Assembly: GCA_020686985.1 (NCBI GenBank)
Contig: JAJEPU010000002.1
Location: forward strand, 62,001 to 126,000
Reading direction: 5' to 3'
From: Brotaphodocola catenula
GTDB lineage: Bacteria > Bacillota > Clostridia > Lachnospirales > Lachnospiraceae
Length of the DNA stretch: 64,000 nt
Both the position numbers and the translations under genes were made by a program. The notes under the pieces were generated by a model that worked only from the letters and a program-made list of their open reading frames with translations, was not told where the DNA came from and did not search any database. How positions within the stretch are numbered: position 1 is the stretch's first letter; every line of letters begins with the position of its first letter. Below are positions 17,197 to 59,069 of this stretch, piece after piece.

Positions 17197-17583
17197 ATGA
17201 CAATCATAACGATCGGGATTGCCGGAATCACAGCGGTATTGCTTGCGGTGCAGATGAAAGGTGTAAAAGGCGAGTATGCGACGTATCTGGCAGTTGCAAC
17301 CGGATGTTTCCTGTTTTTCTACGGGATTACAAAACTTCAGACCGTTCTTGATGCCCTGCGCCGGGTGCAGGATTTTATTCAGATCAGTCCGCTTTATCTG
17401 GCGACTCTGCTCAAGATGACGGGAATCAGCTATGTGGCAGAGTTCTCCTCGGGGATCTGTCGGGATGCCGGATACGGGGCGATCGGAAAGCAGATTGAGA
17501 TCTTCGGAAAATTGTCGATTCTGGCAGTCAGCATGCCGATTGTGCTCGCTCTTCTTGAGACGTTGGAGCGGTTTCTATCATGA
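17197..17583 (+). CDS. spoIIIAD: Stage III sporulation protein AD
   Basis: This 128-residue integral membrane protein has about four hydrophobic helices, and its middle portion (YVAEFSSGICRDAGYGAIG) is highly conserved in SpoIIIAD. It is an inner-membrane component of the SpoIIIA channel. The start ATG at 17197 is preceded by AAGGGG. Its stop overlaps the spoIIIAE start (ATGA at 17580-17583), so translation of the two is coupled. Confidence 0.95.
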   Translation: MTIITIGIAGITAVLLAVQMKGVKGEYATYLAVATGCFLFFYGITKLQTVLDALRRVQDFIQISPLYLATLLKMTGISYVAEFSSGICRDAGYGAIGKQIEIFGKLSILAVSMPIVLALLETLERFLS

Positions 17584-18896
17584 GAGAGTGGACGGCATTG
17601 ACAGGATTAGTATTAGGATTGCGGAAGATTTTTCTCTTTTTGAGTTGTTGTGTTTTGTTTGGAGCTTTTGTTGGGGTCAGTTCGGCGCAGGCAAAATGTT
17701 ATGGGACAGAAAATTATGGGATAAAGCGAATTTGTGAGATTGATGGCAGACAAAATATAAGCCCCCATATAAGTCTAAATGTATGCCAAAACGTCAATCC
17801 TAATAGAATCGGTCTTAATGGGATGAAAATCGATCAGAACACCGATTTGGCGGAGCAGTGGCAGGAGATCGACCAGTTTCTAAAGCGAGAAAAACTTACT
17901 GGAAATGGAGCGTTCAGCTTTTCGGAGCTGATGAAAACGATTCTTGCGGGGGATAGCAGAGCGACGGGAAAAATGTTGATTGATGCCTTAAAACAGGGAG
18001 TCACTGGAAATATCGGCGAGGATTGGCAACTTGCAGGACAGCTTCTGGGGATTGGAATTGTCGGAGCTGTGTTTGTCACATTTTCAAATATCTTTTCGGA
18101 GAGTCAGATTTCCGATACTGGATTTTTTATGACGTATCTGCTGATGTTTGCCCTGCTTGTGACGTCCTTTCTTGAGAGTGTGCGATTCACCGGGCAGGTC
18201 TTGGAACAACAGATTGAATTTATGAAGGTGCTGATGCCGGCGTGTCTGATGGCGACCGCCTGGGCGGGAAGCGGGCTTACGGCAGTCGCATGGTATGAGG
18301 TAGTGTTTTTTCTGATTGCGATCGTCTCATGGCTCTACAAACATTTCTTTCTGCCTCTTGTGCAGATGTATCTGTTGATTAAGTTAGCGGGAAATCTTGG
18401 GAAAGAAGCGATGGTTTCTAAAATGACTGAACTGATGAAATCAGGAGTCCATCTCGGGGTGACATCGCTGTTTGCGCTAGTCATTGGATTTCAGCTGATT
18501 CAGGGCATGGTTCTGCCCTATGCGGATGCCGTGAAATCTGCCGGGATGTGGAAGATGCTTCAGGTGCTTCCGGGGATTGGAAATGGAATAGAGACAACAG
18601 CGAAACTTGTGTTCGGATCGGGCGTTTTGATTAAAAATACGATGGGAGCCGTTGCGATTTTTCTGCTTATTTTATTTAGTTTAAGCCCGATTCTTCGCCT
18701 TGGAATTTTGCTGATTTTTTATCGCCTGATTTCGGCGGTCTTGGAGCCTGTGGCGGATGCTCGTCTGACCGGATGCATCAGCACAGCGGGGGATGCTCAG
18801 AAAATGTTGCTGGAAATGCTCTTATCTGCGGTAGTCCTTTTTATTCTCACGATTGCGCTGATCTGCACCGGGACAAATGCGACGTATCTTGCGTAG
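17580..18896 (+). CDS. spoIIIAE: Stage III sporulation protein AE
   Basis: This 438-residue polytopic membrane protein has an N-terminal signal-like segment (about 12-38), a soluble region (about 40-150) with GNGAFSFSELMKTILAGD, and then about seven hydrophobic helices. Conserved pieces such as KHFFLPLVQMYLLIKLAGNL and LPGIGNGIETTAKLVFGSG identify it. It is the largest membrane subunit of the SpoIIIA complex. The start overlaps spoIIIAD by four bases. An unusual 126-base gap with a long inverted repeat follows before spoIIIAF. Confidence 0.95.
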   Translation: MREWTALTGLVLGLRKIFLFLSCCVLFGAFVGVSSAQAKCYGTENYGIKRICEIDGRQNISPHISLNVCQNVNPNRIGLNGMKIDQNTDLAEQWQEIDQFLKREKLTGNGAFSFSELMKTILAGDSRATGKMLIDALKQGVTGNIGEDWQLAGQLLGIGIVGAVFVTFSNIFSESQISDTGFFMTYLLMFALLVTSFLESVRFTGQVLEQQIEFMKVLMPACLMATAWAGSGLTAVAWYEVVFFLIAIVSWLYKHFFLPLVQMYLLIKLAGNLGKEAMVSKMTELMKSGVHLGVTSLFALVIGFQLIQGMVLPYADAVKSAGMWKMLQVLPGIGNGIETTAKLVFGSGVLIKNTMGAVAIFLLILFSLSPILRLGILLIFYRLISAVLEPVADARLTGCISTAGDAQKMLLEMLLSAVVLFILTIALICTGTNATYLA

Positions 18897-18910
18897 CAAG
18901 TTTGAATAAA

Positions 18911-18959
18911 TGCACATCGCATTCTTGTTACTTTAGTGATGAGTTAAACTCGATGTGCA
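18911..18959. repeat. Inverted repeat inside the spoIIIA operon
   Basis: TGCACATCG (18911-18919) and CGATGTGCA (18951-18959) are perfect 9-base complements around a 31-base loop in the spoIIIAE-spoIIIAF gap, with AAA/TTT-rich flanks. It could be an mRNA stability or processing hairpin. No T tract follows directly. Confidence 0.55.
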
Positions 18960-19022
18960 AAATTTGATAGAAATAGCGTGTAATAAATAAAAAGACGGAT
19001 TTATGGGCAGGAAAAAGGGGGG

Positions 19023-19838
19023 ATGATCACGGAAGGGCTGATGCGGGCAGTTTTTGAGTGGATACGTAATCTGACCGGATTTTTTCTGTTTATGTCTGTG
19101 ATGGATCATCTGATGCCGGAAAAGGCATATGCGTCCTACATACGACTTTTTTCGGGTATGGTTTTTATTCTTCTTGTTTTACAACCGATCACGGGAAATC
19201 GCAAATTGGAAGAGCGGATCGCGCAGTATTATGAGAGCAATCTTTTTCGCTATGAGACGGGAGAGTTGAGAGAAAATCTTCTCGGAGTCGAAGAAAAGCG
19301 GAGAACCCAGATGGTAAATCAATACGAGAGTGTACTCAGTCAGGAAATTTTTAAGATTGCTCAGGCGGACGGATTTGAGGTCAGAAATTGTCGGGTGAAA
19401 ATCAATCAGGATATGGACTCAGAACAGTTTGGAGAGGTGACAGGAGTCAGGGTAGAGGTTTGTTCTGTTCAGCCGGAGCAGAGTGCAGAGATAGACACAG
19501 AGCTTTCAAAGAATATGACAAAAAATGATGGAGCAGATAAATCAGAAATTCAGATTTCAAAGATTACAGTAGAAAACATAGAACATGCGGAAAATGCGGA
19601 GAATGTAGATAAGAAAGAGCGTGCGGGAAGCAGTGAAAACCAAAATAAAAATTTGAATAAAACTCAAGAAGAAAATCAAAAAACCATGCGGGGGGAGACT
19701 CTGGCGGAGGACGACACAGCAAGAGTGGTCTCTGGTCCGGTTTATCAGAAGATCGGGGAGCTGAGAAGCAGAATATCATCGTATTGTGGGGTGGAGGAGC
19801 AGGATGTGGAAATCGGAATTGTGGAAGCGGAAAGATAA
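19023..19838 (+). CDS. spoIIIAF: Stage III sporulation protein AF with a low-complexity insert
   Basis: This 271-residue protein has two N-terminal transmembrane helices (about 15-33 and 40-58) and a ring-building-motif-type soluble domain facing the intermembrane space. Bacillus subtilis SpoIIIAF has about 206 residues. The excess lies mainly in a Lys/Asn/Glu-rich stretch at about residues 155-235, which includes NIEHAENAENVDKKER, placed before the final conserved helix and strand (QKIGELRSRISSYCGV). The ATG at 19023 has AGGGGGG upstream. It overlaps spoIIIAG by 35 bases. Confidence 0.9.
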   Translation: MITEGLMRAVFEWIRNLTGFFLFMSVMDHLMPEKAYASYIRLFSGMVFILLVLQPITGNRKLEERIAQYYESNLFRYETGELRENLLGVEEKRRTQMVNQYESVLSQEIFKIAQADGFEVRNCRVKINQDMDSEQFGEVTGVRVEVCSVQPEQSAEIDTELSKNMTKNDGADKSEIQISKITVENIEHAENAENVDKKERAGSSENQNKNLNKTQEENQKTMRGETLAEDDTARVVSGPVYQKIGELRSRISSYCGVEEQDVEIGIVEAER

Positions 19839-20484
19839 ATGGCTGTTTGTGCTGACGATCGGGACAATTCTCTGTATTCTCGCGATTTCATCCGGAAAGC
19901 AGACAGGCAAAATGCAAAGCCTTCCATCGGGAGATGTTGCAAAAAGTCTGTTTTTAAAGAGTGACTCTTCTGTAACATCAGGAGCTGGTGGAACTGGTAG
20001 AGATACAAATCTTGCAGGCAGTCCGGTAGGTGCAACGTCTGAGGACGATCTTACCGTGTCATCGGTCTCATCAGGTTCTGTTACGCGGACGTATGAGCAA
20101 CAACTTGAGACGAGAGTCAAAAATATTTTAAAAAATGTGGATGGAGTAGGAAAAGTCGATGTGATGATCGCGCTGTATTCCTCATCGGAGAAGGTGATTC
20201 GCAGTGATACGAACAGCAGTGGGTCGCTGACCGAGGAGGCGGATTCCTCCGGCGGGACGAGAAGAAGTGAGAGCAGTGCGTACAGCACGACAACCATCAT
20301 GGAGGACAGCAACGGGAATTCTACCCCTGTCATTGAAAAGGAGGTCTATCCGGAGATTTCAGGGATTGTGATCAGCGCTGAGGGTGGGGATGATCCGAAA
20401 GTCCGCTCGGAGATTTCAACGGCGATGGAAGCATTATTTGGACTGCCCGCCCACAAGATCAAAGTCTTGAAGCGAGCCGGGTAA
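19804..20484 (+). CDS. spoIIIAG: Stage III sporulation protein AG
   Basis: This 226-residue protein has one N-terminal membrane helix (about 10-30), a Ser/Gly-rich linker and a C-terminal ring-building domain (about 85-225, with LETRVKNILKNVDGVGKVDVMI). In Bacillus subtilis SpoIIIAG forms a 30-fold ring between the two sporangial membranes. The ATG at 19804 follows GGAGGAG at 19793-19799 and lies inside the end of spoIIIAF; a GTG at 19786 is possible. It ends the operon, since a strong terminator follows after eight bases. The usual next gene, spoIIIAH, is 8.3 kb away. Confidence 0.92.
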   Translation: MWKSELWKRKDKWLFVLTIGTILCILAISSGKQTGKMQSLPSGDVAKSLFLKSDSSVTSGAGGTGRDTNLAGSPVGATSEDDLTVSSVSSGSVTRTYEQQLETRVKNILKNVDGVGKVDVMIALYSSSEKVIRSDTNSSGSLTEEADSSGGTRRSESSAYSTTTIMEDSNGNSTPVIEKEVYPEISGIVISAEGGDDPKVRSEISTAMEALFGLPAHKIKVLKRAG

Positions 20485-20492
20485 AAGAATTT

Positions 20493-20539
20493 GCGAAAAA
20501 CCGCTTTCCGGAGGATTTTTCCGGAGAGCGGTTTTTCGC
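20493..20539. terminator. Strong bidirectional terminator after spoIIIAG
   Basis: A 19-base stem (20493-20511 with 20521-20539, one G-T wobble) has a 9-base loop, and runs of five A and five T lie inside the stem arms. It can serve spoIIIAG on the forward strand and the PTS operon on the reverse strand. Confidence 0.9.
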
Positions 20540-20605: not shown

Positions 20606-21013
20606 TTACTCATCCTCATCGTTTGCCACAGCATTGTACTCATTTACATAGATCAGATGACTTCTGGATTCTTCCACGATATTTCGCACGGTTTCAGCGG
20701 TCAGAGGCATGTCCTGAGGCTGTAAAACCAGGCTCAAAGCACAGGGAAGATTGATTCCGCAGATCAGATGACGATGATCGTTTGTGTACGGGCAGAACTG
20801 CTGGTTCACACTGCCACCTAACATATCCGTCATTATCACGACCTCATCCTCCGGGTCGAATGAGTCAAAGATTTCCTTGATCTGGGATGGGAGATCGGTG
20901 TCATCCATATAGGCGCTGATGTCAATGATGCCGTCCATGGAGGTAAGAAAATTTAAGGTGTCTTTCAGACCATGGGCCAGTAAATGATGGGAGGCGATAA
21001 TATATTTTCTCAT
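20606..21013 (-). CDS. PTS mannose-family EIIA component
   Basis: This 135-residue cytosolic phosphotransfer protein accepts phosphate from HPr on His9 (ASHHLLAHGL) and passes it to the IIB protein. The IIA-man fold is supported by the EVVIMTDMLGGSVNQQF segment (family: DLxGGSP/SxxN). It is the last gene of a reverse-strand operon, after the ceramidase-like gene, with IIB, IIC and IID further upstream. The C-terminus is acidic (NDEDE). It ends 66 bases from the bidirectional terminator at 20493-20539. Confidence 0.88.
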   Translation of the reverse strand: MRKYIIASHHLLAHGLKDTLNFLTSMDGIIDISAYMDDTDLPSQIKEIFDSFDPEDEVVIMTDMLGGSVNQQFCPYTNDHRHLICGINLPCALSLVLQPQDMPLTAETVRNIVEESRSHLIYVNEYNAVANDEDE

Positions 21014-21115
21014 AGCGCTTCTCCTTGTAATTCGTAATGATATTCAAATAATACTTATAATACTTAAAAACACACAATTACGTTTCACTGATATAACGGA
21101 AAAATGGGGAGATTA

Positions 21116-22339
21116 TTACAGAGATTGGATCAAATGATCCACATAAAGCTCTGCCTCTCCCTGTGGGAACGGGGTCTGCATGCTTTCATAGCCCTTTCCG
21201 AATTCCTCTTTCTCCACGATATAACCGGCACTGTAATTTGCGTAGCCCCAAACGATGCGCATAGGAGCCTCAAAATGTTTCTTGATTTCCATTCCGAATG
21301 TGGAGAACAGTTCTCCCGGAATCGTGATGATCTCCAGATCACCGAGATGGAAGATTACGGAGCGAAGCGTTACATTGACACCGCCAGATGCAATTTTTCT
21401 CTTTAAATGGCGGACACCGGACCAGAGAAGCTTCTTATCGTCCTCGGTCACTGCATTTGCCAGTTTCTCCTCGTCCTCTGCCAGCTGTGCCTTCATCGCA
21501 TCGAGATCGTAGGTCTGATGGATTGTGTACTCGGTTGTCTTGACGGAATCCACTTTTAATTCCATCGGAGTTTCGGTTTCTGCAAAGACATCTACCTGTT
21601 TCATGACCTCATCGCGGACACGCCACAGCTCATTCTCGTCGTTTCCTTTGCGGTACTGGCGGTTGCCCATATCTCCGCAGGCCCCCTGCATGGTGATGAA
21701 GATCGTGTTGTATTTTGCGTCGAGTGCTTTTCCGATATTACCGAGAAGGTCGGAGCTGATCTTCATGTTGTGGATGCCGAGAACGGTTGGATGGCAGGTG
21801 AACTGGAACATACCGGCAACGACATGGTTCTCGTTGCGGAAGAGGATCATGTTGATGTCCTTGTCGCTTGGCTTGTCGAGGTAATTGCGGTTTCCGTAGA
21901 CACCGTTTACTGTGCCTTTTACCATATAAGGGGTTACCTCCAAAAAGCCACGGTCAAAACATTCGTCCACAGCGTCGAAGAGCTGTTTCATCACGATTTC
22001 GCGGTAAACGGCCTTGCGGTGGTTTCTGTCCTCGCCCTCGTCCTCAAAACTGATGTCAGGACCTGAATGTGTGTGGATTGTTCCGATGATGATATTTTCC
22101 CTTGGAACGGAATATTTTCCGGCGAGAACCGTGCGGGCGTAGTCGGAAATCGGCTCCTCCAACCGGCACAGATCCAGAGTGGACCATATAAAAATCTCCC
22201 CGTCAATGCGCAGAACCAGAGTTCTGCAATAAAGCTCATCTAAAACCCCGATGGATTTCCCGGTTCTCATCGCGTAACCGCGCATGTACATGGGAAATGG
22301 AGGTGTAATGACGCGTTTGGCTGTACTTACTTCAACCAT
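21116..22339 (-). CDS. Cytosolic neutral/alkaline ceramidase-fold hydrolase
   Basis: This 407-residue protein matches the N-terminal catalytic domain of neutral/alkaline non-lysosomal ceramidases, which cleave amide bonds with one zinc ion. Likely zinc ligands are conserved: H89/H91 in IHTHSGPD, H183 in FTCHPTVLG, E343 in PGELFST, and a Tyr in the NYSAGYIVEKEE segment. The catalytic Ser of the family hexapeptide GDVSPN is absent; the matching place reads GDMGNR (about 222-227). It has no signal peptide and no C-terminal immunoglobulin-like domain, so it should act in the cytosol. Its place between PTS IID and IIA suggests action on a phosphorylated product of the transporter. The true substrate is unknown. 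Confidence 0.82.
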   Translation of the reverse strand: MVEVSTAKRVITPPFPMYMRGYAMRTGKSIGVLDELYCRTLVLRIDGEIFIWSTLDLCRLEEPISDYARTVLAGKYSVPRENIIIGTIHTHSGPDISFEDEGEDRNHRKAVYREIVMKQLFDAVDECFDRGFLEVTPYMVKGTVNGVYGNRNYLDKPSDKDINMILFRNENHVVAGMFQFTCHPTVLGIHNMKISSDLLGNIGKALDAKYNTIFITMQGACGDMGNRQYRKGNDENELWRVRDEVMKQVDVFAETETPMELKVDSVKTTEYTIHQTYDLDAMKAQLAEDEEKLANAVTEDDKKLLWSGVRHLKRKIASGGVNVTLRSVIFHLGDLEIITIPGELFSTFGMEIKKHFEAPMRIVWGYANYSAGYIVEKEEFGKGYESMQTPFPQGEAELYVDHLIQSL

Positions 22340-22444
22340 ATGATAAATCTCCCCTCAGTGCCTGAGTGATTGTTCAGGTCAAATTTGTTGATTGTTATGT
22401 GTGTATCCATTGATTTTTGAAATGTGATTTTCGATGAATGAAGA

Positions 22445-22482
22445 ACGGCTCTGCCTGCCGGATAAAGACAGGGCAGAACCGT
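22445..22482 (-). repeat. Intercistronic hairpin between IID and the ceramidase-like gene
   Basis: ACGGCTCTGCC (22445-22455) pairs with GGCAGAACCGT (22472-22482), with one mismatch. On the reverse strand no clean T tract follows, so it could act as an attenuator or an mRNA-processing hairpin that sets different levels for transporter and enzyme. Confidence 0.5.
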
Positions 22483-22519
22483 CATTTTGTCATTTATGGA
22501 TATTATCGGTTATGATCTG

Positions 22520-23353
22520 TTAAGCCAGAATTCCGAGTGCAGAGCAGATCATCGAGAAGACGATCACGATGAGGATCAGGGTGGTGATCTTCATGCCTTT
22601 CTTTCCGAGGAGCTTGTACAGAACAAGGACAGTGGCAACAGAGATCATCGAAGGCATGATCTTATCCAACAGATCTGCGACTGCCAGATTGACATCGCCC
22701 ATCTGGAATGCCAGAGGTGTCTTTGCCGTTACAACCGTAGCGGACAGAGCGCCGACAACAGTCAGACCGAGAACAGAAGCTGCATCTGTGATACGAGCCA
22801 GTTTTCCGCCGACCTTGGTGATCAGTTTGGTACCTTCGCGGTATCCGATCCACATCAGCTGAGTACGGATGCCGATGAAGATAAGGTTTACAATGAGCCA
22901 CAGGATGACGCCGATCGGGTTGCCCTCAAGAGCCATATATCCTGCGATCGAGCCCATGATCGTCGGAAGCAGTGTCCAGAACAGCGTATCACCGATACCT
23001 GCCAAGGGTCCCATCAGGCTGACCTTGATGTTCTGTACCGCATCGAGGGAGGAGATTCCCTCTTTATCCTCGAGAGCCAGAGTAGCACCGAGAACGATGT
23101 TTGCGAGCCACGGCATCGTGTTGAAGTACTTAAAGTGGTTGTTCAATGCCTCAACATACTCGTCATCATCCTTGTAGATCTTGCGCAGGAGAGGTCCGAT
23201 ACCGAAAACAACAGCGGGAGCGAGCTGGGTATCGTAGTTAAAGGTTGTTACTGCCATTAAGGACCAGCGAATAGCACCTTTCACACAGTCTTTTTTTGTT
23301 AAAACGGGAGCTTTCTCCATTCCTTCATTCTTTTCCATAATCTCATTATTCAT
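22520..23353 (-). CDS. PTS mannose-family EIID component
   Basis: This 277-residue membrane subunit is found only in mannose-family PTS permeases. Its conserved features are present: KGAIRWSLMAVTTFNYD near the N-terminus, FFNTMPWLA-like FKYFNTMPWLANIVLG, SLMGPLAGIGDTLFW in the middle, and C-terminal membrane helices. The start at ATG 23353 follows AGGAGG and lies inside the last codons of IIC (8-base overlap), so the two are translationally coupled. With IIC it forms the sugar channel. Confidence 0.94.
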   Translation of the reverse strand: MNNEIMEKNEGMEKAPVLTKKDCVKGAIRWSLMAVTTFNYDTQLAPAVVFGIGPLLRKIYKDDDEYVEALNNHFKYFNTMPWLANIVLGATLALEDKEGISSLDAVQNIKVSLMGPLAGIGDTLFWTLLPTIMGSIAGYMALEGNPIGVILWLIVNLIFIGIRTQLMWIGYREGTKLITKVGGKLARITDAASVLGLTVVGALSATVVTAKTPLAFQMGDVNLAVADLLDKIMPSMISVATVLVLYKLLGKKGMKITTLILIVIVFSMICSALGILA

Positions 23354-24116
23354 CTTCAAGTCCTCCTGCAAATCCTACATTTTCCTTTGCTTCCTCATCC
23401 ATATAGAACTTGTAAGCCAGTGCGACACCAAGGAATGCGATACCAAGAATCGGAACGCCCATGTATGCGCTGAGTACAAAACCGATCAGAATGTAGTTGA
23501 AATATTTCTTTGCCGGCATGTAGTGGAGCAACATTGCAATACCAAGACCCGGAAGGAGTTTTCCGGCTACGGACAGACCACCTGTTACCCAGGCCGGAAG
23601 GACATCGAGAATTGCCTGAACCAGAGGAGCACCGGCAGTCAGAGCAACTGCGGTCGGGAATGCCATGAAGACTGCTACCATGATCGGGCAGAGGTAGAGG
23701 ATCGCATACATTTTGCCAAACTGTTTCTCATTTGCATACTTCTGAGATTTCTGTGCGATGAAGGAGTTGCAGATCTTGTATAAAACGTCCATCTGCACGC
23801 CGAGCATACCAACAGGAAGACCAATCGTCATACCAACTTCCGGTCCCTGTCCGGTTGTCTTTGCGAACGCACAGGCGATAATCGTCGCAACGCCGTAATC
23901 CGGTACGGAAGAACCACCAAGAGCAGCAACACCCAAGGACATCAGTGTGAATGTACCACCGATGTAGAGACCACTGTTCATATCACCGAGGATCAGTCCA
24001 CACAGGAAACCGACGATAACTGGTCTTGCGTGTGTCAGTGACAATCCACGACGGTCAACGTTGATCTCAGCAGCCACCAGAACAAGCAGTATAATTTGTA
24101 AAGCGCTTAATTGCAT
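23346..24116 (-). CDS. PTS mannose/sorbose-family EIIC component
   Basis: This 256-residue polytopic membrane protein is the substrate-translocating subunit. Family marks include LTHARPVIVGFLCGLILGD, GLYIGGTFTLMSLGVAALGGSSVPDYGVAT (read as two adjacent conserved segments) and GLPVGMLGVQMDV. It lies 18 bases after IIB and overlaps IID. The sugar cannot be deduced from sequence. Mannose-family systems carry hexoses, amino sugars, uronic-acid disaccharides and also glycated amino acids (fructoselysine, glucoselysine). Confidence 0.94.
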   Translation of the reverse strand: MQLSALQIILLVLVAAEINVDRRGLSLTHARPVIVGFLCGLILGDMNSGLYIGGTFTLMSLGVAALGGSSVPDYGVATIIACAFAKTTGQGPEVGMTIGLPVGMLGVQMDVLYKICNSFIAQKSQKYANEKQFGKMYAILYLCPIMVAVFMAFPTAVALTAGAPLVQAILDVLPAWVTGGLSVAGKLLPGLGIAMLLHYMPAKKYFNYILIGFVLSAYMGVPILGIAFLGVALAYKFYMDEEAKENVGFAGGLEDE

Positions 24117-24134
24117 AACAATTCCCCCCTTTTG

Positions 24135-24620
24135 TTATTTCAGAAATTCATCCATCGAAATTTCTGCATCAGCAGGTACATACTGTGCATACATTTTGGT
24201 TCCACTTGCCTTTAACTTCTTGTAAGCCTCGATGTCATCCGGCTTTGCAAAGGCTCTCTGGGAAATCTTCACAGCTTCCTCGCCCTCCGCAGGCTTTACA
24301 GTTCCGCCGACTACCAGCTCCGGAACCCTTACACCGATCTCGGTAAGTTTAACCAGAGTTTCCGGCTTCTTGACCAGAACAAATACGGTGTGATCGTTGT
24401 ACTTTCCGGCCTTGAAGTTGTTCAGTGCGGTCTCTTCAGTGATGATGGAGATTGCCATGCCGGTAGGTCTGGCAAGCTTCATACTCGCTTTGGTCAGCTC
24501 ATTGTTGGCAACTGTGTCGTCGATGATCATGATGCGCTGTGCACCAGAACGACCAGCCCACTGTGTTGCCACAATGCCGTGAAGAAGACGGTTATCAATT
24601 CTTGCAAGTACAATACCCAT
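24135..24620 (-). CDS. PTS mannose/fructose/sorbose-family EIIB component
   Basis: This 161-residue cytosolic protein transfers phosphate from IIA to the incoming sugar. The phosphorylated His14 lies in RIDNRLLHGIVATQW, the family signature. The start ATG at 24620 is 9 bases after the stop of the LevR-like regulator gene, with an AGGAGG ribosome binding site. It therefore appears to be cotranscribed with the regulator, and no promoter space exists between them. Confidence 0.95.
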   Translation of the reverse strand: MGIVLARIDNRLLHGIVATQWAGRSGAQRIMIIDDTVANNELTKASMKLARPTGMAISIITEETALNNFKAGKYNDHTVFVLVKKPETLVKLTEIGVRVPELVVGGTVKPAEGEEAVKISQRAFAKPDDIEAYKKLKASGTKMYAQYVPADAEISMDEFLK

Positions 24621-24629
24621 ATTTACCTC

Positions 24630-27404
24630 CTACTCGTCCTCGCGGACGACCGGGCTTTCTGCCTGCCCGGAAAGCTTATTTTTTGAATTCAGATGTATGT
24701 AATCGTAAATGTAAGCGATCTCACTCACAGGGAGAGCCACCCGGTAATGGCGGGAGATATCCTGAAAGCTGTCTTTTACTTGTCCGATAAATTCAGCGTG
24801 TTTTTGTTCAAAATCTTCCAGATCCTGATAATTGTCGATCGGAGTTTTTGTGACCAGACGCTCTACCAGACAACACAGGTGGACGTAAAGCCCGATCATA
24901 ATCCGCCCCGCAATCTTTCTTCCGGTGATCTTCTGGAGCCGTCCAACCGCCTGTTCCACCTCGTCTAAGAGTTTGTCAGGATTTAAAATGGTGATGGACT
25001 CCACAACATTTTGAAGGGAGAAGTTTTTTACCAGGTTCTGATTGAAAACTTCCATCTGTTCTTCATTCAGGTACTCGGAAAAAATGTTGGTCAGTTTTTC
25101 CGCGGAATTCATCGAGATGATGTCCTCCAATGAGATGAAAGGAATTCCTTCGATCTCCGGATTAAAGACCCCGATGATGCATTTTACATGGTACTGCTGG
25201 AAGATCTCATCGCGACTGCCGTTTTTCACCAGTCGATAATAATCGTAAGCCACAAATTTTAGAGGAATCACAGCCTCGGAAGTTTTTAAGATCAGTTCTT
25301 TCAACTTCTCGGTTGTGTCGATGCCGTTTTCTCCGCTGAAGATTATGGCATCTTCCTTCTGCATATTGTGGATGATGCGATAGGTACAGATGTTGCTTTC
25401 ACTGGCACGTTTCAGAATGTCTTCCAACTTTTGATTTCCACAGATGCCGAGACCGATGTCAACGGCGAGGGCAGTGGAAATGTTGTTGATGATGCCGATG
25501 TTTAAGTTTCTCAGACCACGCATCTGGCTGTGGATCTGCTCTAAAGACCCCATATCGACCAGAAGGATTACGTCCTGACAGGTGATAAATCGTTCAATGT
25601 GTTTTTCCAACAGACCGGTGATCTCATTCATTTGCATGTCGAGAGGCATGTCGATTGCGTCGAATACCTTTCTGCCGATGATCTGGTTGGCGGCGTCTGC
25701 AATGCTTGAAGCGGTTGCATAGCCGTGGCTTAGAATGATGCCGGCAGCGGAAAGTCCCTGAATCTTCTGATTCTGGTTTTTGATGTCCAGAAGCAGGAAG
25801 AGTTGGTTTAAACTATCTGTCTCAATGTCCAGATTCAGTTTGATTAAATTTACGATCCGGGAACAGATGACTGCCTCTTTTTCGAGGACGGTGCTGACTG
25901 TCTGAAACATTTCTTCGATCTCATCTCGGTTTTGCTTCATCCAGTTGTCAATCAGATGGTCGCCATGAAGCTGAATGTAGAGGCAGCGGGCAAGCAGGTG
26001 ACTGTATTTTTTAGAAAGACTGATGCCATACATCTCGCCCACATTTTCAAAGATCTGGTTGATCAACTGCTCGTAAGTGGAGATCTTGATGTTTACAAGT
26101 TTCTGTCCGTAGATCAGATAATCGTAGTAGTCATTTAGTTGTTTCCGGAATTCACTCATCAGACCGTCAAAATTGATTGTGTCCTGACGGTAATCCTCAA
26201 AGACATCTAACATGATCTGGAAAAACTGTACGGTCTGTCCAAGTGAAGTATCTCGACTGTAACTGTTTAAGTGGATCATCCGTTTGTCCTTGTCCTTGAT
26301 TTCCAGCTTTAGGGAAGAGAGCATGTATTCCGGAAGGTGGTAGCTGTAAATAGCGATTCCATCGTTGCTTTTTTCCAGATAAGCTCCGGCGCAACTGCTG
26401 GTAACGCAGGTTTTTAACTCGTCGATGTTGTTCTCGTAGGAAAATTCCAGCATACAGTGGAAGGCGTTCTGGCTGATGCTGACGTCGACTCCCATGCGCC
26501 GTCCCTCTGCTCTCAAAAAGGAAATCAGCATTTCCTCTTTTTCATCGGCGGTGCGTTCGTGTAACGTGGGAACAGGGATCACAATGGGGATCATCCGTGC
26601 AAGCGGTTTATAGAGTGTTTCTCCGGATGCTTTTGTCGTGGAGAACACCAGTCTTGCGTTCGATTCAAAAATATGTTCTTCATCGTGATAACTCTTGTAC
26701 TGTCCCGAGATCAGGTAAAAATAAATCAGTTCCTGACCTGAAAATGGAAGGCGGTCAATCTCGTCAAAAAACAGGATACCGTCTTTGGCTTTTGCAAGCC
26801 AACCTTTTCCATCCGCTCCGCCACAGAGGGCAAGAGCAAATTTTTCTTCGTTCTGGGCGTATTCCGAGCAGTCTACGGAAATGTAGGGTGGAAGAGAGGT
26901 TGCCCCCGCTGTTCCAATGACCCGTTCGTTTACCGCGTATTCATACATCAGCCGGGAAAGAAAAGCCTTTCCAGTTCCGCCGGCGCCGTAAAACAGAGCC
27001 GGAAGACCGTTCGGCGGATATTTGATTGCCGCTTTGCACTGTTCGATACAAGAACTTAAACTCAGGTAATAGCCGATGGCTTTTTGAAAATCTCTTTTCT
27101 TTTCATCGCTTCGGCATTTACGCTGAAACTCGTCCATGCCGGAGAATACGCAGGTTTCCAGGGTGACCTGGGCTTCGCGTTCAACATTTTTTTTATGAAA
27201 AAAGTATACAGGGCGGGAGTTGACCTTGATGGCCCGCTCTTCTTTTACCAACTCATTCAGATACTGACTGGCTAAGTTACGGGAAATATTCAGAGATTCG
27301 CTGATGTGATTCGCCGTAAAATATTTCAGATCTTTCAGAGTAAAACCCCGACTTATTTTTTCCAAGTAAAGATATAATTCCTCTTTGGTGCTGAGCATGT
27401 ACAT
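24630..27404 (-). CDS. LevR-like PTS-operon regulator with degenerate sigma-54 activator core
   Basis: This 924-residue protein has an N-terminal winged helix (about 20-70), an AAA+ domain (about 95-340), a PRD near 440-500, an EIIA-man-like domain (about 560-690, with AAGIILSHGYATASSIADAAN) and a C-terminal PRD (about 800-910). This is the LevR/ManR layout. Two changes stand out. Walker A is GAGGTGKA (140-147), lacking the final Ser/Thr, and the GAFTGA loop expected at about 185-205 is absent. Walker B (ILFFDE, 210-215) is intact. PRDs and the EIIA-like domain let the PTS control activity through His phosphorylation. It heads the operon and probably regulates it. Sigma-54 dependence is doubtful. 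Confidence 0.87.
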   Translation of the reverse strand: MYMLSTKEELYLYLEKISRGFTLKDLKYFTANHISESLNISRNLASQYLNELVKEERAIKVNSRPVYFFHKKNVEREAQVTLETCVFSGMDEFQRKCRSDEKKRDFQKAIGYYLSLSSCIEQCKAAIKYPPNGLPALFYGAGGTGKAFLSRLMYEYAVNERVIGTAGATSLPPYISVDCSEYAQNEEKFALALCGGADGKGWLAKAKDGILFFDEIDRLPFSGQELIYFYLISGQYKSYHDEEHIFESNARLVFSTTKASGETLYKPLARMIPIVIPVPTLHERTADEKEEMLISFLRAEGRRMGVDVSISQNAFHCMLEFSYENNIDELKTCVTSSCAGAYLEKSNDGIAIYSYHLPEYMLSSLKLEIKDKDKRMIHLNSYSRDTSLGQTVQFFQIMLDVFEDYRQDTINFDGLMSEFRKQLNDYYDYLIYGQKLVNIKISTYEQLINQIFENVGEMYGISLSKKYSHLLARCLYIQLHGDHLIDNWMKQNRDEIEEMFQTVSTVLEKEAVICSRIVNLIKLNLDIETDSLNQLFLLLDIKNQNQKIQGLSAAGIILSHGYATASSIADAANQIIGRKVFDAIDMPLDMQMNEITGLLEKHIERFITCQDVILLVDMGSLEQIHSQMRGLRNLNIGIINNISTALAVDIGLGICGNQKLEDILKRASESNICTYRIIHNMQKEDAIIFSGENGIDTTEKLKELILKTSEAVIPLKFVAYDYYRLVKNGSRDEIFQQYHVKCIIGVFNPEIEGIPFISLEDIISMNSAEKLTNIFSEYLNEEQMEVFNQNLVKNFSLQNVVESITILNPDKLLDEVEQAVGRLQKITGRKIAGRIMIGLYVHLCCLVERLVTKTPIDNYQDLEDFEQKHAEFIGQVKDSFQDISRHYRVALPVSEIAYIYDYIHLNSKNKLSGQAESPVVREDE

Positions 27405-27472
27405 GATTCTCCTGTTTGTAAATTTGAGCTTGTCTCTTCGCGCGTTTTCTTGTCTACCTGATTACAAGCATT

Positions 27473-27501
27473 ATTATACAAAAAATCTTTTTTTAGGGAA
27501 T
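27473..27501 (-). promoter_or_regulatory. Promoter of the levR-PTS operon: good -10, poor -35
   Basis: On the reverse strand TATAAT (27478-27473) is preceded after 17 bases by ATTCCC (27501-27496), which does not resemble TTGACA. This pattern is typical of activator-dependent sigma-A promoters. I see no sigma-54 -24/-12 pair here. Confidence 0.5.
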
Positions 27502-27514
27502 AGGTTTTGGACGA

Positions 27515-27544
27515 TTTCGTCAGTTGAGAAAGGGTTTCGTCAGT
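27515..27544. promoter_or_regulatory. Two direct repeats 20 bases apart: candidate activator sites
   Basis: TTTCGTCAGT occurs at 27515-27524 and again at 27535-27544, a period of exactly 20 bases, so both face the same side of the helix. They lie 13 bases or more upstream of the -35 position of the levR-PTS operon, where an activator would bind. Confidence 0.6.
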
Positions 27545-27601
27545 AGAGGGGCAGAAAATGGGGGTGTGGGAGAAGAAAGCGAAGGGGGTTCGACACTAGG
27601 A

Positions 27602-27635
27602 TTGACACTTTTGTGAACAGGAAGTGTGGTATACT
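27602..27635 (+). promoter_or_regulatory. Possible promoter of the HAD gene
   Basis: TGGTATACT is an extended -10 with its hexamer at 27630-27635. A perfect TTGACA lies at 27602-27607, but the 22-base spacing is too long for normal use. Either the extended -10 works alone or a factor bends the spacer. Confidence 0.4.
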
Positions 27636-27741
27636 GGAACTATGAGAAGTGGGGAGTTGGAGAATTGGACAGAAGAATATGAAACAGAAAAGTAACGGAA
27701 AAAACGTATTAGCTAGTGTATGAAATGAGGAGGAAAGGATT

Positions 27742-28575
27742 ATGCAAAGTGAGAAACAAGAGATTCGTCTGGTAGCCGTAGATTTGGATGGAACGATTCT
27801 TCATGAAGACAAGAGCATATCGGATTATACATTAAAGGTATTGAGAAATATCGTGAAAAAAGGTGTGATCCTGGTGCCGGCGTCCGGTAGACCGCTCGAA
27901 GGAATGAAGAAGGCGGTGTTAAATCAGGTCGATGGCATCAAATATGCGATCTGCTCCAATGGTGCAATGCTGATGGATGTGCCCGAGGAGAGATGCATCT
28001 GTGAAGCTGGAATTCCGACTGAAAAAGCGGTAGAAGCGCTTGCGTTTCTGGAGCAGTTTCCAACCGCGGTGTATGCACATACAGATCAGGGAACATTTCG
28101 GGAAGTGGGCTGGGAAAAGACCGGCTTATCAGAAAAATATCCCTATATAAAGTTTAGCGAAGGAAATGTCGAGAATCTGAGAGAGTTCTTGAAAACCAGT
28201 GGGGTGAAAGTGCTGAAAATGGGGGCATTTGCATTGGAAGATGGACTGGCACAGAAGATTTTAGAGAAAGGAAGTCCGACTCCCGGAATTGTATTTTTGA
28301 GAACCGGAGACGGAATCGTGGAGGTGAATTCTGTCGATGCCTCGAAAGGAAATGCATTGTGTATACTTTGTAAAAAATTAAAAATAAGTATGGAAAATGT
28401 GCTCGCAATAGGCGATAATGAAAATGACATTTCGATGCTTCAGTCAGTCGGTGTTTCGGTTGCGATGGGAAATGCTGAGGAGGACGTGAAACAGGTCGCA
28501 AAGTATGTGACAGGCAACAATGAAGACGATGGAGCAGGGCATTTTCTGGAAGAGTGGGTGTTGAATCGAGATTGA
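27742..28575 (+). CDS. HAD-superfamily (Cof-type) sugar-phosphatase
   Basis: This 277-residue cytosolic phosphatase has the HAD motifs DLDGTIL (nucleophile Asp and acid/base Asp, about residues 14-20), ASGRPL (motif II region), the Lys of DASKGNAL (motif III) and GDNENDISML (motif IV). The C2B cap typical of Cof/YbiV-like enzymes fills the middle. Such enzymes dephosphorylate sugar phosphates, FMN-like or PLP-like compounds. Its position, divergent from a PTS operon and sharing its control region, suggests removal of phosphate from the imported sugar or relief of sugar-phosphate stress. This is inference. The start has GAGGAAAGG upstream. Confidence 0.9.
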   Translation: MQSEKQEIRLVAVDLDGTILHEDKSISDYTLKVLRNIVKKGVILVPASGRPLEGMKKAVLNQVDGIKYAICSNGAMLMDVPEERCICEAGIPTEKAVEALAFLEQFPTAVYAHTDQGTFREVGWEKTGLSEKYPYIKFSEGNVENLREFLKTSGVKVLKMGAFALEDGLAQKILEKGSPTPGIVFLRTGDGIVEVNSVDASKGNALCILCKKLKISMENVLAIGDNENDISMLQSVGVSVAMGNAEEDVKQVAKYVTGNNEDDGAGHFLEEWVLNRD

Positions 28576-28814: not shown

Positions 28815-29645
28815 ATGAAGTTGAAAAAACCGGAAATACGTCCGCAGAAGGATGGGGACGGAAAAGTCAAACGAATGTTCCGCAGAAATCAGATGATTAT
28901 CACGACACTTGCGATTATGATTGCGGCAGCCGGATACTTAAACTATGCGGGAAAGAAGGAACTTGAGGCAAGCACAGACAAAGGAAATCAGATCTATCAG
29001 GCGGGAAGTCTTGATATTTCAGACGAAGATCTGCTTGCAGAGAATCAACTTGCGGAGAATCAGCTGGCGGGGGACAAGAACGGGCAGAATGGCGACAATC
29101 TGCAACCGCAGGCGGAGGGAAGTCTTCTTCAGGCGGAAGCAGGGGGAGAGCAGACTGACGGAAGCGGAAATTCGGGTGCAGATACTGATACTGCGGGAAC
29201 TCAGCTTGCCGAGATTGACAGCTGGGACGCGGAGGAGAGTGGACTTGAAAATCCCGGGGAAGCCGTGCTCACAAGCGGAATCACGGTGTCAGACTACATA
29301 GCCGGAGTGCAGATGAACCGCGAGCAGATCCGTGCGAAGAACAAAGAGACGCTCAACAGCATCATCAACAACGCCAATATCGCAGAATCGGCAAAGCAGG
29401 AAGCAATTCAGAATATGATTCAGATGACGGCGATTGCGGAGAAGGAAAATGCGACGGAGACGCTTCTTCAGGCGAGAGGTTTTGCTGACCCGGTTGTGAG
29501 CATCACGGACGGCAAGGTGGATGTTGTGATCAATGCGCCGTCGATCACCGACCAGCAGAGGGCGCAGATTGAGGACATTGTAAAGCGAAAGACGGAAGTT
29601 CCGGTTGATGGAATTGTGATTACGCTGATGAAGCTCGAAGAATAA
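28815..29645 (+). CDS. spoIIIAH: Stage III sporulation protein AH
   Basis: This 276-residue single-pass protein has a cytosolic basic start, one membrane helix (about 30-46), a long acidic Gln/Gly/Glu-rich linker (about 65-155, containing LAENQLAENQLAG repeats) and a C-terminal YscJ/FliF-like ring-building domain (about 165-276, with GFADPVVSITDGKVDVVI). It is the mother-cell partner of SpoIIQ. The linker is longer than in Bacillus subtilis SpoIIIAH (218 residues). It is separated from spoIIIAG by the PTS module but keeps its usual downstream neighbours, asp23 and nusB. The ribosome binding site is AAAGGAGTGG. Confidence 0.92.
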   Translation: MKLKKPEIRPQKDGDGKVKRMFRRNQMIITTLAIMIAAAGYLNYAGKKELEASTDKGNQIYQAGSLDISDEDLLAENQLAENQLAGDKNGQNGDNLQPQAEGSLLQAEAGGEQTDGSGNSGADTDTAGTQLAEIDSWDAEESGLENPGEAVLTSGITVSDYIAGVQMNREQIRAKNKETLNSIINNANIAESAKQEAIQNMIQMTAIAEKENATETLLQARGFADPVVSITDGKVDVVINAPSITDQQRAQIEDIVKRKTEVPVDGIVITLMKLEE

Positions 29646-58981: not shown

Positions 58982-59069
58982 GGAGATGTACCCAAGTGGC
59001 TGAAGGGTCCGCACTCGAAATGCGGTAGGTCGGGTAACCGGCGCGAGGGTTCAAATCCCTCCATCTCCG
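58982..59069 (+). tRNA. tRNA-Ser (anticodon CGA)
   Basis: This 88-base class II tRNA has acceptor GGAGATG (58982-58988) pairing with CATCTCC (59062-59068), discriminator G at 59069, and anticodon stem CCGCA/TGCGG with anticodon CGA at 59016-59018. It has a long variable arm and T-loop GTTCAAAT. The 3' CCA is not encoded. It reads UCG codons. tRNA genes of this kind are common integration sites; the flank upstream carries decayed mobile DNA. Confidence 0.96.

Follow-up and report, generated by a model that had tools for sequence, protein, structure and literature searches.

Organization of the locus

Within the window, i.e. the whole stretch of 64,000 nucleotides from Brotaphodocola catenula that was analysed, positions 20606 to 28575 hold a block of seven genes encoding a mannose-family phosphotransferase system (PTS), a PRD-type regulator, a hydrolase related to the neutral ceramidases and a HAD phosphatase. 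All seven open reading frames were confirmed. Six lie on the minus strand in the order regulator-IIB-IIC-IID-hydrolase-IIA, with the phosphatase gene divergent from them, so that the operon content, order and strands given by a first-pass annotation of the letters were recovered by the reading-frame and Pfam analyses alike. The genes are as follows:

20606..21013, minus strand: PTS mannose-family IIA (135 aa; Pfam EIIA-man, 4.4e-9; SHHxxAxG motif)
21116..22339, minus strand: ceramidase-fold hydrolase (407 aa; Pfam Ceramidase_alk, 7.5e-13)
22520..23371, minus strand: PTS mannose-family IID (283 aa; Pfam EIID-AGA, 4.2e-84)
23346..24116, minus strand: PTS mannose-family IIC (256 aa; Pfam EII-Sor, 2e-70)
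24135..24620, minus strand: PTS mannose-family IIB (161 aa; Pfam PTSIIB_sorb, 1.3e-42; RLLHG motif)
24630..27404, minus strand: LevR/DgaR-like regulator with PRD and EIIA domains (924 aa; Pfam PRD, Sigma54_activat, EIIA-man)
27742..28575, plus strand: Cof-type HAD-IIB phosphatase (277 aa; Pfam Hydrolase_3, 2.5e-54)

The block thus encodes all four mannose-family subunits (EIIA, B, C and D, by Pfam), and both the SHHxxAxG motif of IIA and the RLLHG motif of IIB, which stand at the usual phosphohistidine sites, are present here and kept in the five close relatives described below. The sugar cannot be named from these subunits, since every NCBIfam model listed for them falls under its cut-off, Aga models being among the top ones (AgaW for IIC and AgaF for IIA). 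AgaA, AgaS and AgaI gave no match in the operon with Pfam or NCBIfam, and no SIS domain was found by Pfam among the seven proteins.

Linkage of the hydrolase to PTS genes

The first-pass annotation had named as refuting its reading the case that the hydrolase accompanies PTS genes in no other genome. This refutation fails: the pair is present in five close relatives, ten distant loci and an Enterococcus plasmid, one of the distant loci carrying a different PTS family. The hydrolase is rare in the family: 11 of 397 Lachnospiraceae genomes (the window genome included) contain a match at E 1e-10, with only one other being close, at 78% identity. The five close relatives, namely Enterocloster alcoholdehydrogenati, [Clostridium] asparagiforme, two Hungatella metagenome-assembled genomes (MAGs) and one Lachnospiraceae MAG, are all placed in Lachnospiraceae and have hydrolases 71-78% identical to that of the window. 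They were found by scanning genome contigs with two short peptide patterns, which makes their number a lower bound; the same scan also gave one distant match (23% identical). The order regulator-IIB-IIC-IID-hydrolase-IIA is kept in all five, and four of them also have the divergent HAD gene (37-50% identical), while the flanks differ from locus to locus, as judged by eye with two genes named by Pfam.

For the wider family, 77 loci around hydrolase-family matches were collected, some of them sharing one genome: six from the peptide patterns, 15 from a further batch, 40 from a class (Clostridia) sample and 16 from order and phylum samples. The class sample comprises the best 40 of 83 places outside the window's own, six of the 40 loci being shorter than 6 kb. 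The phylum sample covers 398 genomes, 16 of which have a match (window included); 14 loci were taken from the 15 other genomes, the one left out (G1480) being of the same genus as G1229. PTS genes were sought with IIA-IID of the window and with eight seeds, namely the PTS of genome G019 and seven PF02378 members from the window genome, a search that misses other PTS families. Genes of these kinds were found in 15 of the 77 loci, i.e. the five close relatives together with L058, L068, L139, L141-L146 and L150, the hydrolases of these ten distant loci being 25-29% identical to the window protein. By source, linkage was seen in 2/15 loci of the further batch, 0/40 of the class sample, 1/2 new order loci and 7/14 phylum loci, the phylum sample having been drawn with a profile (A5) built from PTS-linked sequences only, which favours their kin. 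In seven of the 14 phylum loci a mannose-type IIC gene lies within 6.5 kb of the hydrolase gene (in an eighth it is 16.6 kb away), against 0.08 loci expected from the number of IIC genes per genome, corresponding to P of about 3e-12 when counted by loci and about 7e-5 when counted by three clades.

A tree of 83 rows was computed from the window protein and 82 of the 83 family rows, omitting the cut 252-aa sequence of L153. In it, the window clade (six proteins) groups with L058 and L068 (support 100/99), all of which are PTS-linked. L058 has the hydrolase with mannose-type IIB-IID-IIC and a gene of the metallo-beta-lactamase fold, and L068, from a genome of the window's own genus, has a Glc/Bgl-type IIABC beside it, so that one well-supported clade includes mannose-type as well as beta-glucoside-type PTS operons. 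A single inherited event as the origin of the linkage was rejected: the approximately unbiased (AU) test excluded one clade of all 16 primary PTS-linked rows, i.e. those without the second L068 paralogue, at p 0.00065, with the reservation that long branches may mislead the model.

The operon type of L068 (5813-11251: amidohydrolase, two ceramidase-fold genes and a beta-glucoside-type PTS) is also present on an Enterococcus raffinosus megaplasmid (L161, 4757-11225), where LysR and amidohydrolase genes accompany two hydrolase-family genes and a beta-glucoside PTS IIABC. The second of these hydrolases is 39% identical to that of L068, and the first falls under the Pfam cut-off.

Active site of the hydrolase

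Ceramidase_alk (PF04734) is the sole Pfam assignment of the 407-residue protein and covers only 82 N-terminal residues (14-95), at 48.4 bits against a curated cut-off of 32.1; NCBIfam holds no family for it. A profile made from five hydrolase sequences matches the neutral ceramidase structures (2zws, 4wgk) at 4e-23 for the human and 4e-21 for the Pseudomonas enzyme. In these alignments H89, H183, E343 and Y373 correspond to H97, H204, E411 and Y448, the zinc ligands of 2zws, and they are kept in all 16 primary PTS-linked rows. By our own count on the profile alignments, H91, R151, Y373 and Y384 are the counterparts of human H196, R257, Y579 and Y591, residues described as critical for ceramide hydrolysis, with Ser354 stabilizing R257 (PMC6952831, partial text); Y384 is absent from two PTS-linked rows, L058 and L068. 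The position of that serine (chain position 250 in 2zws) is occupied by Gly225 in all six window-clade proteins and by Ser in 10 of the 11 remaining PTS-linked rows. The lack of the serine, together with the length of 407 aa and the lack of a leader, led to the rejection of a true ceramidase as a candidate. The leader was looked for by a crude scan of the relatives' proteins, which revealed no hydrophobic leader or signal peptide.

Two arginines, R227 and R230, occur together in 16 of 17 PTS-linked rows (16/16 primary ones), compared with 3/14 SIS-only rows and 12/52 others, the one PTS-linked row without the full pair is the second L068 paralogue, in which H91 and H183 are missing as well. 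It may be guessed that this pair binds the phosphate of a substrate. An AlphaFold2 model built from seven sequences reached a predicted local distance difference test score (pLDDT) of 73.7 and a predicted template modelling score (pTM) of 0.79; the active-site loops 149-156, 185-194, 220-233 and 369-391 score under 50, too low to support a pocket geometry.

The loss of the serine raises the question of whether the fold has been reused here for another hydrolysis, such as that of a sugar-phosphate lactone or ester in a perhaps polar pocket, for which the constancy of Gly225 across the window clade and the varied neighbours of the wider family, oxidoreductases among them, could both be cited. 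The zinc ligands and H91, R151 and Y384, whose human counterparts are critical for ceramide hydrolysis, are nevertheless kept, and this alternative to amide cleavage appears unlikely, though it survives better than the others considered below.

Amino-sugar genes beside distant relatives

Genes of amino-sugar type lie beside the hydrolase in some of the distant PTS loci, in L147, a locus with an ATP-binding cassette (ABC) transporter, and in four alphaproteobacterial plasmid loci. NagA (TIGR00221) is matched twice above cut-off in L141 and once below it in L163; L144 has a NanE-like gene (NF002231), and L147 a NagK-like gene (NF046058, below cut-off) with M20 peptidase genes nearby. NagB-like genes, also below cut-off, occur in L162 and L163, and three of the four plasmid records annotate such genes as 6-phosphogluconolactonase. 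Further neighbours in these loci include DeoC, Gfo/Idh and SIS proteins of the 'sugar isomerase domain' type (NF002805), one of which, in L141, matches NagS (9eol, 1.7e-51) and a putative phosphoheptose isomerase (3cvj, 1.7e-57). In the haloarchaeal locus L165, sulfatase-like and Gfo/Idh genes stand in place of the amino-sugar genes. The plasmid loci L162, L163, L164 and L166 carry a module of NagB-like, SIS, amidohydrolase (NagA-like in L163), ceramidase-like and ABC importer genes, most of which overlap or abut.

These neighbours also bear on a muropeptide-type amidase, in which the PTS would take up amino acids conjugated as amides to an N-acetylmuramyl or N-acetylglucosamine (GlcNAc) unit and the hydrolase would split the phosphorylated sugar from its amino acid or peptide, the SIS protein of the relatives then eliminating the C3 substituent and NagA and NagB finishing the breakdown. 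NagS of Streptomyces, the match of the L141 SIS protein, dehydrates GlcNAc 6-phosphate (GlcNAc-6P) and is related to MurQ, and of three more distant NagS homologues two failed on GlcNAc-6P and one had negligible activity, which makes another substrate likely for them (PMC12680351, partial text). NagA, NagB-like and, in L147, M20 peptidase genes near the relatives' hydrolases would suit this scheme as well. The window operon, however, has neither a peptidase nor an SIS gene, no NF002805 protein was matched in the window genome, and none scored above cut-off in G166, the genome holding the closest relative; the scheme is thus doubtful, and somewhat more so than the reuse of the fold on a lactone or ester.

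Regulation and genomic position

The following features lie in the intergenic regions of the block and at its edge:

20493..20539, no strand assigned: inverted repeat, terminator-like by pattern, 20 pairs counted, between spoIIIAG and the IIA gene
22340..22519, minus strand: IID-hydrolase gap of 180 nt with a stable hairpin (-42.8 kcal/mol, z -4.2)
27588..27609, minus strand: direct repeat AGTGTC-N6-AGTGTCGA, candidate operator, starting 205 bases before the regulator start

The operon had been called LevR-type in the first-pass annotation, which holds for the domain set of its regulator (AAA+, PRD and EIIA, by Pfam) and fails for the sigma-54 mechanism that the term implies. The AAA+ domain of the regulator is missing the nine-residue stretch carrying GAFTGA, as it is in all six members of the window clade; in other loci this stretch reads GAFTGA (L142 and L144) or GTFTGA (L147). 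No match to sigma-54 (PF04552) was obtained in the window genome (G000, 98.8% complete). Among the other genomes, the DNA-binding domain of sigma-54 gave no match in G112, a match in a 71-aa frame only in G166, and matches over its whole length in G1312, G1476 (L142) and G1479 (L147). Because the GAFTGA loop is lacking and no sigma-54 gene was found, the regulator does not fit the LevR mode. A promoter search of the window gave 61 sigma-54 matches with at most two mismatches against 46.8 expected, as many being reached in 4 of 100 shuffles; the control region upstream of the regulator contains none, and within the block all of them are inside genes. The repeat AGTGTC-N6-AGTGTCGA occurs once in each of six control regions (window and five relatives); the six loci and the window hold no further AGTGTC-N6-AGTGTC, and 2000 shuffles of each region produced none. 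Looser words resembling it occur closer to the regulator.

In the window the hydrolase gene is preceded by the 180-bp gap and followed by one of 102 bp; the corresponding gaps of the five relatives measure 13-66 bp and -4 to 10 bp, respectively. Because the former gap folds well and yet no U-run follows its hairpin, the structure may modulate transcription into the hydrolase gene rather than terminate it. A repeated element was rejected as its origin, no second copy of 22345-22515 being present in the genome. At gathering scores, the only Rfam match in the window was one tRNA (58982-59069).

The block sits between spoIIIAE/AF/AG (17580-20484, the TIGR02830 match of spoIIIAG falling under the NCBIfam cut-off) and spoIIIAH (28815-29645, PF12685). 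Since the spoIIIA genes of Bacillota normally form one operon, it looks as if the block had been inserted, splitting this sporulation operon. A phage origin was rejected, as phage records gave no match.

Proposed pathway

The pairing of hydrolase and PTS is real and conserved, and the two are very probably functionally coupled. At about even odds (0.5), the hydrolase would be a zinc amidase of the cytosol whose substrate, an N-acyl or amide-linked amino-sugar compound, would be imported and phosphorylated by the PTS. The block would then form a catabolic unit complete in itself and would have moved from one genomic site to another, its mannose-family PTS importing and phosphorylating a small sugar compound and the ceramidase-fold enzyme cutting an amide-type bond in the product, most likely in an N-acyl or amide-linked amino sugar. 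The cleavage products would enter amino-sugar metabolism, for which a NagA gene is present elsewhere in the genome; since this genome has NagA and yet no NF002805 match, the steps that follow the hydrolase may take a different course for the window operon. The LevR-derived regulator, with its PRD and EIIA domains, would sense PTS phosphorylation and act without sigma-54, perhaps via the direct repeat, and the HAD phosphatase would be accessory. The first-pass annotation had arrived at an imported, phosphorylated sugar with an amide-type bond. This stands in part and is the preferred reading, as the enzyme retains the zinc and amidase residues and one branch of the family is found within operons for amino sugars.

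A number of observations weigh against this zinc-amidase reading. Its amino-sugar component comes from relatives at most 25-29% identical, and several of their operons already have a NagA gene, which would make simple N-deacetylation redundant there. Genes for NagA, NagB and SIS proteins are all missing from the window operon, and its genome has no NF002805 SIS match. In the Clostridia sample (best 40 of 83), PTS linkage is found in none of the 40 loci, and SIS, NagA-type and NagK-type genes in three each. The make-up of the phylum sample, the Gly225 substitution and the confounding of the arginine pair with ancestry point the same way, and the hairpin before the hydrolase gene could uncouple its expression in this strain. 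That the hydrolase is a mere passenger, or that its target has nothing to do with the PTS substrate, is nonetheless improbable: the wide gaps and hairpin flank the gene in this strain and most of the wider-family loci fetched lack PTS linkage (15/77 have it), but the gaps are short in the five relatives, the gene is placed between those for IID and IIA, and the linkage recurs in separate clades.

If the zinc-amidase reading is extended to the family, which is done here more tentatively, an unnamed cytosolic branch of the ceramidase fold might consist of zinc amidases for amino-sugar conjugates in phosphorylated form, supplied through a PTS in some cases and through an ABC importer and a kinase in others. 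The window operon would be a minimal, mobile form with its regulator off sigma-54 control. A fold familiar from the breakdown of sphingolipids would thereby gain a cytosolic role in sugar metabolism, and the substrate of an orphan PTS would become open to direct testing. This reading would also mean that genes annotated as 'neutral/alkaline non-lysosomal ceramidase' in amino-sugar operons need not act on ceramide.

Comparison with known systems

Literature searches gave, among the matches listed, no report of a pairing of this hydrolase with a mannose-type PTS, and the three papers containing both 'ceramidase' and 'phosphotransferase system' seem, from their titles, to be unrelated. Known mannose-PTS operons include levDEFG-sacC and gfrABCDEF (PMC6615313, partial text).

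With the neutral ceramidases (2zws, 4wgk; PF04734) the window enzyme has in common the profile match, the zinc ligands and residues equivalent to human H196, R257, Y579 and Y591. In contrast to these enzymes, which are secreted or membrane-anchored, have 646-688 residues and use an active-site serine, it has 407 residues with no leader seen, lacks the serine, has the arginine pair and is encoded in a PTS operon. The aga operons for N-acetylgalactosamine and galactosamine are the nearest by the IIC and IIA models (AgaW and AgaF, below cut-off), but AgaA, AgaS and AgaI gave no match here. As regards the NagS/NagA branch of GlcNAc-6P metabolism in Streptomyces, NagS-family SIS and NagA genes adjoin the distant relatives of the window hydrolase, whereas neither the window operon nor its genome yielded a NagS-family gene; the word ceramidase does not occur in the main text of the NagS paper (PMC12680351).

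A parallel in layout exists with the lev-, gfr- and dga-type operons. These combine a PRD-type regulator, mannose-family IIA-IIB-IIC-IID and an enzyme acting on the substrate, which is a SIS-type deglycase in the fructoselysine and glucoselysine PTS operons, and the window operon has the same three components. It differs from them in its regulator, which lacks GAFTGA in a genome where no sigma-54 gene was found, and in its enzyme, the place of a SIS deglycase, an ammonia-lyase or an exo-enzyme being taken by a zinc hydrolase of the ceramidase fold.

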